Part shown: positions 27,647-31,387 of the stretch, one piece after another
How the letters are laid out: each line of letters begins with the position of its first letter
Position numbering within the stretch: position 1 is the first letter of the stretch
Origin: Syntrophomonas sp.
Lineage (GTDB): Bacteria; Bacillota; Syntrophomonadia; Syntrophomonadales; Syntrophomonadaceae
DNA length: 64,000 nt
Assembly (NCBI GenBank): GCA_016841425.1
Contig: JAENZE010000003.1
Span: 186,001 to 250,000, forward strand
Direction of reading: 5' to 3'
Made by a program: the position numbers and the translations under genes
Notes under the pieces: model-generated
Seen by the model: only the letters and a program-made list of their open reading frames with translations
Databases searched by the model: none
What the model was told of the DNA's origin: nothing

Positions 27647-29020
27647 ATGGGAAGACTGTTTGGTACTGATGGAGTTAGAGGAATAGCTAATGCTGACCTT
27701 AACGCTGAACTAGCTTTTCGGCTGGGTATGGCAGGCAGCCATGTGCTGGCAAAACATAATACCAGGACCAGGCCACGAATACTGGTAGGAAAAGATACCC
27801 GAATTTCTGGTGATATGCTGGAGGCGGCCTTGATTGCAGGCATATGCTCTACTGGTGCCGATGCACTTATAGCCGGGATTATACCCACTCCGGCAGTAGC
27901 TTTCCTGACCCTCAAATATGAAGCATCATGTGGTATAGTAATATCTGCTTCCCATAATCCGGTAGAGGACAATGGGATAAAATTTTTTGGTGCTGATGGC
28001 TATAAGCTTCCTGATGAAATAGAGGAAGAGATTGAAGAGGTATTGGAAAACCAGGCCTACTTGAGCGGTCTCCCGGTGGGAGGGGATGTAGGCAGAGTTT
28101 ATAACCTGGAAGACGGGCTAAAAAATTATGTCAATTCTGTATGCGACTGTTACACCCTGGACCAGGATTTAAGGAATATAACCATAGTGGTAGATTGTGC
28201 TAACGGAGCCGCTTACGCAGCCGGGCCAATGATGTGGAAAAAGCTGGGAGCCAGAACCATTACCATCGGAGACAAACCTAATGGTCTGAATATTAATGAT
28301 CGATGTGGATCGACCCATATTGATAATTTAAGAAGAGCAGTTTTGGAGAGCAAAGCGGATATCGGTATTGCCTATGATGGTGATGCAGATCGCTGTATAG
28401 CAGTTGATGAATATGGTAAAGAGATTGATGGTGACCATATTATGTGTATCACAGCTCTGGATATGCAGAGGAGAGGACTATTGAAGCCCTCTGAAATAGT
28501 AGCCACAGTTATGAGCAACATCGGGTTGAACATTGCTTTAAGGCGAGAAAACATAGCAGTCAGCAGTTGTAAAGTGGGGGACCGTTATGTATTGGAGAAG
28601 ATGATGCAAAACGGTGCTATGTTAGGTGGAGAACAATCCGGGCATATAATTTTTAAACAGCATGCTACCTCAGGAGATGGATTATTGACTTCACTGAAGT
28701 TGGTAGAGGTAATGCAGAGAACCGGTCTTCCCCTTTCCCGATTGGCGGCAGAAATGGAAAAGCAGCCCCAGATCCTGGTTAATGTAAAGCTGGAGAATAA
28801 AGAACAGGTAATGGCACATGAATTGGTAGTGGAAGCCATTAATAATGCAGAAGAGAAGTTGGGAGAATGGGGAAAACTGGTGGTAAGACCATCAGGAACT
28901 GAACCACTGGTCCGGATTATGGCTCAGGGTCCCGATGAATACCTGCTCAAGGAGGTGATTAATGCCATAAAAGAAAGAGTAGAACAAGTGACCGGAAAGT
29001 ATTCCGGAACATTTGCGTAA
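27647..29020 (+). CDS. glmM: Phosphoglucosamine mutase
   Basis: A 457-residue enzyme converting glucosamine-6-phosphate to glucosamine-1-phosphate for peptidoglycan synthesis. The N-terminal LFGTDGVRGIAN, the phosphoserine loop ISASHNPVEDNGIKFFG (Ser near residue 105), the magnesium loop DGDADR and the C-terminal RPSGTEPLVRIM are all present. Length is standard. The glmS ribozyme begins on the base after its stop codon, and glmS supplies its substrate. Confidence 0.96.
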   Translation: MGRLFGTDGVRGIANADLNAELAFRLGMAGSHVLAKHNTRTRPRILVGKDTRISGDMLEAALIAGICSTGADALIAGIIPTPAVAFLTLKYEASCGIVISASHNPVEDNGIKFFGADGYKLPDEIEEEIEEVLENQAYLSGLPVGGDVGRVYNLEDGLKNYVNSVCDCYTLDQDLRNITIVVDCANGAAYAAGPMMWKKLGARTITIGDKPNGLNINDRCGSTHIDNLRRAVLESKADIGIAYDGDADRCIAVDEYGKEIDGDHIMCITALDMQRRGLLKPSEIVATVMSNIGLNIALRRENIAVSSCKVGDRYVLEKMMQNGAMLGGEQSGHIIFKQHATSGDGLLTSLKLVEVMQRTGLPLSRLAAEMEKQPQILVNVKLENKEQVMAHELVVEAINNAEEKLGEWGKLVVRPSGTEPLVRIMAQGPDEYLLKEVINAIKERVEQVTGKYSGTFA

Positions 29021-29340
29021 AGCGCCAGACCCGGTACAAAAAAGCATACTCAGGGGATGGCCTGCGGCAAGCAGTGCTTGCTATGGCCAGACTTATAGAC
29101 CAGGGAGATATTTCCCAGTTTAAATGTACAGTATGGGATTAACGAGCATTGATCCATTAGTGTAGGATTGGTTTCCGGGGTTGGGGTTTAATCCCATTCA
29201 AGCCAGTTTATGCTCAGTGCAGTTCCGGGTGACGAGGAGAGGGTTAATCGAGATATTCGGCGGATACCCTCCGGTGAACCACCATCGTTAGACTGATTAC
29301 AAAACCGGATAGAGATAACCGGTACAAAAAGTCAGATCAA
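29021..29340 (+). ncRNA. glmS ribozyme with a large P1 expansion
   Basis: A29021-GCGCC begins the cleavage-site segment; cleavage would fall between A29021 and G29022. Core elements match known glmS ribozymes: GACGAGG at 29231-29237, GGGTTAATCGA, ATTCGGCGGAT, ACCCTCCGG, and the peripheral ACCGG/CCGGT pair at about 29310-29332. P1 is closed by ACCCGG (29029-29034) and CCGGGT (29225-29230). About 190 bases lie between these strands, instead of the usual few tens, and hold their own hairpins (GCAAGC/GCTTGC; ATGGGATTAA/TTAATCCCAT). GlcN6P binding should trigger cleavage and lower glmS expression. The 3' boundary is approximate. Confidence 0.88.
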
Positions 29341-29354
29341 GTGGTATACAAAAA

Positions 29355-29532
29355 TGGACGAGGGGACGGTTCTCTTGTCCACTTTTTTGAATCTGTTAGG
29401 AGTAGACACGGGGACGGTTCTCTTGTCTGCTTTTAGAATGCTTTTAGAATATGCTGGGGAGACAGACAAGAGAACCGTCCCCGTGTCTACCCTCGTTAAG
29501 AAAGATGGACAAGAGAACCGTCCCCTCGTCCA
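29355..29532. repeat. Nested double palindrome of REP-like repeats
   Basis: Outer arms 29355-29381 and 29506-29532 are perfect 27-bp inverted copies. Inner arms 29402-29429 and 29463-29490 are perfect 28-bp inverted copies. All four contain GGGGACGGTTCTCTTGTC, arranged forward, forward, reverse, reverse. The array lies between the glmS ribozyme and the glmS ribosome site and ends 16 bases before that site. The frame happens to be open through it, so it can be mistaken for an N-terminal extension of glmS. Confidence 0.9.
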
Positions 29533-29560
29533 CCCTTTGATTATAATTGGAGGTTATATT

Positions 29561-31387
29561 ATGTGTGGAATAATGGGTTATACCGGAAGAGGCAATGCAG
29601 TTCCGGTGATAATAGATGGCCTGGCGAAATTGGAATACCGTGGATATGATTCGTCGGGTATAGCCATGTACAATGATGGAAAAATTGACGTGTGTAAAAA
29701 GAAGGGCCGGCTGGCTGATATGGTGGAAGAACTAGGCAAGGGGAAATGCTGCAGCCTGGGTATTGGGCATACCCGCTGGGCGACCCATGGGGTACCCAGC
29801 GATTCCAATGCTCATCCCCATTGCGATTGCACCGGCAAAATTGCCCTGGTTCACAATGGTATCATAGAAAACTATGCTCAGCTGAGGAAAGAATTGATTA
29901 TTGAAGGCCATGATTTTGTATCTGAGACTGATACCGAAGTGATGGCTCATCTGATAGAAAAATACTATACTGATTCACTGGAAGAGGCAGTCAGAAAAGC
30001 ACTTGCTCAGGTACGGGGTTCATTTGCCATCGTTGTAATATGCAGTGATGAACCAGACAAGATTGTAACTGCCAAAAAGGCCAGCCCGCTCATAATTGGA
30101 TTGGGGCAGGGGGAGAATTATGTAGCTTCAGACATACCAGCAGTACTGGGACTAACCTCTAATGTTTACATTATTGAAGAAAACGAATTTGCAGTCATAA
30201 CCCCGGACAAAGTCGTTATAACAGACTTTGAGGGCCAGCCGATTGATAAAAAGGTATTCGAGGTTACCTGGGATGCAGTATCCGCTGAAAAGGAAGGATA
30301 CGATCATTTTATGCTCAAGGAAATAAATGAACAGCCCCGTGCTATCAAAGATACCCTGGCCGGTAAAACGGTTCAGAATATGGTGGACCTTAGTGGGCTG
30401 GAAATGGATGAAACCTTTAAACAGGTGGGTAAAATATTTATAGTTGCCTGTGGAACAGCCTACCACGCAGGATTGGTAGGCAGAATGGCTATTGAGAAAC
30501 TAGCCCGGGTACCGGTAGAAACAGATATTGCTTCTGAGTTCAGGTATCGGGACGTTCTATGGAATCCTGATGATCTAATGATAGTAGTCAGCCAGTCCGG
30601 TGAAACAGCCGACACCCTGGAGGCTTTAAGAAAAGCCAAACGTCAGGGCATCAAAGTTCTGGCTATAACCAATGTGGTGGGAAGTTCCGTAGCCCGGGAA
30701 GCGGATAAGGTGATTTATACCCATGCCGGGCCTGAAATCGCAGTAGCATCTACGAAAGCTTATATTACCCAGCTGGCTATCATGTACCTAATAGCAATGT
30801 ATATGGGAAAAATCAAAGGAGCTTGTACTGAGTCAGAGCTACAGGAGCTGGGTTCCCAATTATACGGTATAGATTTGCTGGTACAGAAGATACTGAATCG
30901 GGAAAAGGAAAGCGGGAAAATAAAGCAGTTGGCTGAAAAATACAAAGAGGTACAGAGCACCTTTTTCCTGGGACGCGGACTCGATTATGCAGTGGCCATG
31001 GAAGGGGCTTTAAAGCTGAAAGAAATTTCTTATGTCCATGCTGAGGCCTATGCAGCAGGTGAACTGAAACACGGTCCCCTGGCTTTAATACATGATGGGG
31101 TACCAGTTCTGGCTTTAATAAGCCAGGATGATCTGGTAGAAAAGTCTATGTCCAACATCAAAGAAGTAAAAGCCCGCGGTGCAGTGGTAGTGGCAGTATG
31201 TAAAGAAAGCTTGCAGGAAGCATGTCAGGAATGTGATGATCAAATTCTTCTGCCAGATATTAATCCTATACTAGCTCCGATTGTTTCGGTAGTTCCGCTG
31301 CAGTTGTTTTCTTATTATATGGCCATCTATCGGGGAGCAGATGTGGATAAACCAAGGAACCTGGCCAAAAGTGTGACGGTAGAGTAA
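29561..31387 (+). CDS. glmS: Glutamine-fructose-6-phosphate aminotransferase (isomerizing)
   Basis: A 608-residue enzyme making glucosamine-6-phosphate from fructose-6-phosphate and glutamine. ATG 29561 has TTGGAGG about seven bases upstream and gives MCGIMGY, which places the catalytic Cys at position 2. The glutaminase domain shows EYRGYDSSGIA and GHTRWATHG; two SIS domains follow (VACGTAYHAG; VVSQSGETADT), and the protein ends KPRNLAKSVTVE as usual. Control is by the ribozyme upstream, and by whatever the nested palindrome does. Confidence 0.96.
   Translation: MCGIMGYTGRGNAVPVIIDGLAKLEYRGYDSSGIAMYNDGKIDVCKKKGRLADMVEELGKGKCCSLGIGHTRWATHGVPSDSNAHPHCDCTGKIALVHNGIIENYAQLRKELIIEGHDFVSETDTEVMAHLIEKYYTDSLEEAVRKALAQVRGSFAIVVICSDEPDKIVTAKKASPLIIGLGQGENYVASDIPAVLGLTSNVYIIEENEFAVITPDKVVITDFEGQPIDKKVFEVTWDAVSAEKEGYDHFMLKEINEQPRAIKDTLAGKTVQNMVDLSGLEMDETFKQVGKIFIVACGTAYHAGLVGRMAIEKLARVPVETDIASEFRYRDVLWNPDDLMIVVSQSGETADTLEALRKAKRQGIKVLAITNVVGSSVAREADKVIYTHAGPEIAVASTKAYITQLAIMYLIAMYMGKIKGACTESELQELGSQLYGIDLLVQKILNREKESGKIKQLAEKYKEVQSTFFLGRGLDYAVAMEGALKLKEISYVHAEAYAAGELKHGPLALIHDGVPVLALISQDDLVEKSMSNIKEVKARGAVVVAVCKESLQEACQECDDQILLPDINPILAPIVSVVPLQLFSYYMAIYRGADVDKPRNLAKSVTVE

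Follow-up and report, generated by a model that had tools for sequence, protein, structure and literature searches.

The window, that is, the whole stretch of 64,000 nucleotides of Syntrophomonas sp. analyzed here, carries on its forward strand the gene glmM (phosphoglucosamine mutase, 27647–29020; an open reading frame with 568 bits against TIGR01455) followed by glmS (glutamine--fructose-6-phosphate transaminase, 29561–31387; TIGR01135, 828 bits over 2–608). A mechanically called reading frame opens at an upstream ATG at 29354 and makes glmS too long. Because the start is conserved in the relatives, we place the true start at ATG 29561, shortly behind a GGAGG motif (29549–29553) that, judging from the sequence, is likely the ribosome-binding site. 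The closest GlmS proteins, those of L045 and L046, are 93% identical to the GlmS of the window. In the glmM–glmS intergenic region, upstream of the putatively regulated glmS and on the same strand, we find a glmS ribozyme whose stem P1 is expanded by 190 nt. Its cleavage segment AGCGCC (29021–29026), identified in the Rfam alignment, lies directly 3' of the glmM stop codon TAA (29018–29020); cleavage is presumably between A29021 and G29022, the position we take from established glmS ribozymes. It continues with the 5' strand of P1, ACCCGG (29029–29034), the insert (29035–29224), the 3' strand of P1, CCGGGT (29225–29230), and finally the conserved core together with the 3' peripheral domain (29231–29347; segments GACGAGG, TTCGGCGGAT and ACAAAA in the alignment).

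The initial annotation had recognized the ribozyme core and two P1 strands about 190 nt apart, and both assignments are borne out. The glmS ribozyme model RF00234 matches 29010–29347 on the forward strand with 81.1 bits (gathering score 37, E = 1e-18). The match is complete (model positions 1–167), with 182 nt passed over in P1, and the model aligns and pairs both P1 strands across the insertion; all six of the six base pairs between them are complementary. The core segments GCGCC, GACGAGG, CGGCGGAU and ACAAA are all intact in the alignment and conserved in the five congeners. The locus resembles other RF00234 members in its core segments, GCGCC, P1, P2, the 3' domain and the place upstream of glmS, and differs from them by a distal P1 loop enlarged to about 190 nt. 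It belongs to a known ribozyme class, a self-cleaving riboswitch that governs the synthesis of cell-wall sugars, and its P1 expansion makes it an architectural variant specific to this lineage.

The spacer that follows the ribozyme and precedes glmS contains REP-like nested palindromes (GGGGACGGTTCTCTTGTC, 29355–29533, forward strand), which lie outside the ribozyme and include one inverted repeat of 37 nt (89%) and another of 28 nt (100%). They have 36 matches in the genome of the window, and a long hairpin is predicted for them in the spacer. Matches of miRNA models at 29395–29499, all below their gathering scores, were rejected, since such hairpin models hit this palindrome by chance. The palindrome arm at 29516–29530 is 87% complementary to the core strand 29231–29245, probably by chance. 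In the relatives the same spacer holds a related palindrome (G001 and G003) or a different insertion (G002); the latter is palindromic, with TTTCGCAG/CTGCGAAA ends (L047:4640–4900). A simple scan for a promoter inside the P1 insert, which could be a source of glmS mRNA lacking the ribozyme, gave none, and the terminator-like hits of the same scan sit in the REP-like palindromes.

The P1 segment of 204 nt folds at −74.6 kcal/mol compared to −57.4 ± 4.1 kcal/mol for dinucleotide shuffles (z = −4.2) and is more stable than all 200 of 200 shuffles. For 29021–29347, computed with programs that leave out the ribozyme pseudoknots, the predicted fold consists of P1 (ACCCGG/CCGGGT followed by AC/GT), an inner helix of AGCATA/TATGCT (29043–29048/29209–29214, mean pairing probability 0.70) and a junction with four hairpins, and P1 would be closed with a mean pairing probability of 0.97. 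Most helices of the four-hairpin insert have predicted probabilities of 0.8–1.0. Hairpin A (29053–29094) is formed by GCAAGC/GCTTGC and TGGCC/GGCCA (0.87–1.0), hairpin B (29096–29122) by TAGAC/GTTTA and GGGAG/TTCCC (0.83–0.90), hairpin C (29127–29164) by TACA/TGTA and GGATTAA/TTGATCC (0.96–0.98), and hairpin D (29166–29208) by GATTGGTTT/AAGCCAGTT (0.94) and an inner GGGGTTG/TAATCCC helix (0.49). Of the two hairpins that had been proposed from the sequence at first, GCAAGC/GCTTGC (29067–29072/29076–29081) is recovered with a probability of about 1.0, while ATGGGATTAA/TTAATCCCAT (29133–29142/29188–29197) is not: it is a true inverted repeat, yet its arms are engaged in the helices of hairpins C and D, which leaves a probability of 0.0 for their pairing with each other.

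In all five congeners the interiors fold better than their shuffles (z −2.6 to −5.7). The predicted closure of P1 around the native inserts is 0.97, 0.73, 0.51, 0.93 and 0.98 for G000, G001, G003, G002 and G004, of which G001 and G003 are not independent cases. With dinucleotide-shuffled interiors the means, in the same order, fall to 0.41, 0.23, 0.04, 0.02 and 0.01. A stricter shuffle that keeps 15–16 nt per side fixed gives means of 0.69, 0.59, 0.19, 0.18 and 0.44, and here 11, 106, 37, 6 and 10 of 200 shuffles reach at least the native closure, showing that, taken one by one, just some of the five cases stand out. Because native closure exceeds the closure obtained with shuffled interiors, the models suggest that natural inserts tend to fold upon themselves so that P1 stays intact, an effect that appears modest.

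We next turn to the length of P1 among relatives, expressed as the P1 span, that is, the distance between GCGCC and GACGAGG. All five of the five genomes examined in the genus have a long P1, with spans of 204 nt (window), 149, 149, 168 and 246 nt. The 41 ribozymes of the host family range from 19 to 377 nt with a median of 33 nt, and 11 of them reach at least 90 nt. For 19 ribozymes from outside the host family, fetched via the GlmS protein and therefore not picked by their P1 length, the span is 15–40 nt. That the P1 loop is short in known examples, as had been stated earlier, holds only in general: a long P1 recurs in the host family and appears sporadically elsewhere. Further long P1 stems are rare in the phylum sample; one is found in another lineage of the phylum (G409, L126:512–850), where a P1 of 208 nt is made of repeated hairpin units. 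An assembly artefact, which had been considered as a possible source of the long P1, now has a practically negligible probability: the locus lies inside a 284-kb contig of a genome of 27 contigs, and the same architecture is present in independent genomes of the genus.

Several long-P1 ribozymes received a wrong 5' end from Rfam/Infernal in whole-genome scans, so that true spans of 99–377 nt appeared near-normal. Mis-anchored in this way were the ribozymes of G025 (99 nt), G009 (114 nt), G038 and G040 (108–109 nt) and G071 (377 nt), and false 5' ends were found at the loci L038, L039, L040, L041, L048 and L135. For the 246-nt congener the reported 5' end was wrong as well, giving a total of only 169 nt; its true AGCGCC is at L048:4591, immediately behind the stop codon of glmM. 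Under permissive settings the G025 ribozyme was aligned properly by the glmS model. Because such false 5' ends hide the expansion, long-P1 glmS variants are likely under-counted.

The core is 84–94% identical among the five congeners. Additionally, compensatory changes occur in P1 across the host family: pair 5 is G-C, C-G, A-T, T-A or G-T in 40 of the 41 ribozymes and in 10 of the 11 in the long-P1 subset. From this covariation we can conclude that the P1 helix is under selection, the long-P1 cases included. These data also bear on the idea that the insertion damaged the ribozyme, which then no longer works. The Rfam score of 81 bits is indeed lower than the scores of short-P1 relatives in the host family, which reach up to 116 bits, with the deficit coming mostly from the cost of the insertion and from the 3' domain. 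The core, however, is essentially intact and highly conserved over five long-P1 species, and P1 is kept by compensatory change. A damaged ribozyme is therefore very improbable.

The interior of P1 behaves differently. In alignments judged against shuffled controls, G001/G003 was the one pair of congeners with similar interiors, besides a weak signal for G000/G001 (2 of 500 shuffles). Between G001 and G003 the interior is 85% identical in a gapped alignment, compared to 93% for the core and 74–79% for the 4-fold degenerate sites of glmM and glmS; in these alignments the interior is somewhat more conserved than the 4-fold sites, which points to possible constraint that would be weak at most. Between G002 and G004, with 61–66% at the 4-fold sites, the interior has no remaining similarity. 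An interior that can no longer be aligned between most congeners while core and P1 are kept argues against a conserved second sensor.

This brings us to the two readings that the initial annotation had offered, namely that a variable loop tolerates an inserted element or that a regulatory domain has been added. In the second, the insert would be an aptamer or a protein-binding RNA that turns the ribozyme into a two-input switch. The strong self-folding and P1 closure in five of five congeners, the long P1 kept genus-wide and a hairpin that G001 and G003 both preserve through alternative pairings would fit such a domain. A ligand-binding domain should, however, conserve sequence, and there is no motif conserved across the genus; P1 lengths vary from 149 to 246 nt, and a search against 4227 Rfam families at E values up to 5 gave no match to a known RNA class in the insert. 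Because the interior is unconserved and matches no RNA family, a second aptamer is unlikely, and we consider an added domain of either kind decidedly unlikely, its positive support being the stable folding. The tolerated insertion is favored because the interior is unconserved and belongs to no known RNA class, because P1 spans range from 19 to 377 nt, and because a mobile repeat is present in the P1 of G071.

The G071 ribozyme (L135:71–447; L173) has, like that of the window, a giant P1 (377 nt) on a conserved core. Its P1 loop contains a 270-nt MITE-like multicopy element with the inverted ends GACTCCACTGCGAAAAC / GATTCTACTGCAAAAAG, of which 14 copies were read from the genome, nearly all 99% identical, and most of these have short direct duplications, some 6–8 bp long, at their flanks. 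For the P1 copy the duplicated target is TGGATATG, the last G of which may be part of the element. The empty site is represented by uninterrupted sequence in the related genome G025 (L038). Together, element and empty site show directly that mobile repeats do land in P1 and that alleles carrying them are retained. G029, G009 and G022 have AT-rich palindromic P1 inserts that look comparable; those of G029 and G009 match each other at 88%.

In G071 the insert can be recognized as a recent multicopy element with a target duplication, whereas the insert of the window is single-copy. Its own genome contained no second copy that would mark it as a MITE or REP insertion, and searches of 40 other host-family genomes, 299 other phylum genomes, plasmids and phages returned only short weak matches. 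Likewise, the inserts of the congeners, searched in the five genus genomes, were recovered only at the glmS loci themselves besides short weak matches. No terminal inverted repeats were found at the insert of the window. A candidate target duplication, ATACTCAG (29046–29053) versus ATGCTCAG (29212–29219), was noticed by eye and agrees at 7 of 8 positions, with a roughly estimated chance of about 6%. Since the insert shows neither a further copy nor inverted ends nor a convincing target duplication, its origin by insertion followed by decay is presumed. The G025 ribozyme, of the same host family, also has a long P1, and the interior differs from that of the window; the insert has only a 35-nt weak match in that genome, located elsewhere.

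We think that the P1 insert is quite probably a tolerated, largely passive expansion on a working glmS ribozyme, and our best reading of the sequences is an expansion that turns over rapidly. In this scenario the hairpin loop of P1 would have grown into the 190-nt, four-hairpin domain. Sequences including mobile repeats would land in the permissive P1 loop, decay and get replaced, while selection would maintain local self-folding as well as the core and the base of P1. The self-folding insert would let the two P1 strands meet and the core form; in glmS ribozymes the distal end of P1 points away from the catalytic core. Catalytic activity is expected by homology with other glmS ribozymes: binding of GlcN6P would lead to cleavage just 3' of the glmM stop, decay of the downstream glmS RNA and lower glmS expression. 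The insert itself would remain passive in this process. These cases reveal the P1 end of the glmS ribozyme as an evolutionarily open site, which can take up hundreds of nucleotides including mobile repeats while the conserved core is kept.

Natural architectural variation is not new to this class. The glmS variants of Deinococcus-Thermus reportedly add stems within the core, whereas the window enlarges the peripheral P1 loop instead. In engineered glmS ribozymes a U1A hairpin is reported to have been placed in P1. Such a foreign hairpin is likewise tolerated, and it is man-made and about 12 nt long compared to the natural 190 nt of the window. A passage in PMC10004510, citing Cochrane 2007, mentions engineered glmS ribozymes with a U1A protein-binding hairpin for crystallization. 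For the structural variants of Deinococcus-Thermus the reference is McCown, Roth and Breaker 2011 (RNA 17:728), which PMC11602151 cites. The P1 expansions may be regarded as the natural counterpart of engineered insertions and as a ready place of attachment for sensor modules. In the papers that we searched, there was no report on long-P1 glmS ribozymes or on Syntrophomonas glmS ribozymes.

Besides the possible constraint on the G001/G003 interior, another observation counts against a passive insert. The long P1 is kept in every congener, which hints that its length or bulk could be useful. A kinetic role would be one form of this: a long P1 would delay the synthesis of the 3' P1 strand and the core once the 5' strand has emerged, while ribosomes terminating on glmM would mask the 5' P1 strand, so that cleavage would be coupled to glmM translation and length would matter while sequence would not. 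Indeed, length is kept and sequence is not, and in five of five genus genomes the offset of the glmM stop from the cleavage segment is −3 or −1. Against this, a short P1 occurs despite a close stop in the host family (L158: offset −3, 35 nt), long P1 stems also occur with distant stops, and on inspection we saw no host-family-wide link between a close glmM stop and a long P1. We rate the kinetic role as quite unlikely. That the expanded P1 is a selected regulatory feature, whether as a timer set by its length or as a docking domain tied to glmM translation, is unlikely as well; if true, it would make this a metabolite-sensing ribozyme with a second, sequence-relaxed input.

At 29018–29022 the window reads TAAA^GCGCC, with the glmM stop one base before the expected cleavage, a spacing common to four of the five genus genomes; with the stop in this place, the 5' P1 strand should lie under a ribosome that terminates there. 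In G001 (L045:4610–4630) the glmM stop TAG overlaps the cleavage site (TA^GCGCC), so that cleavage of a glmM–glmS transcript would sever the stop codon itself and turn the glmM message into a non-stop one.
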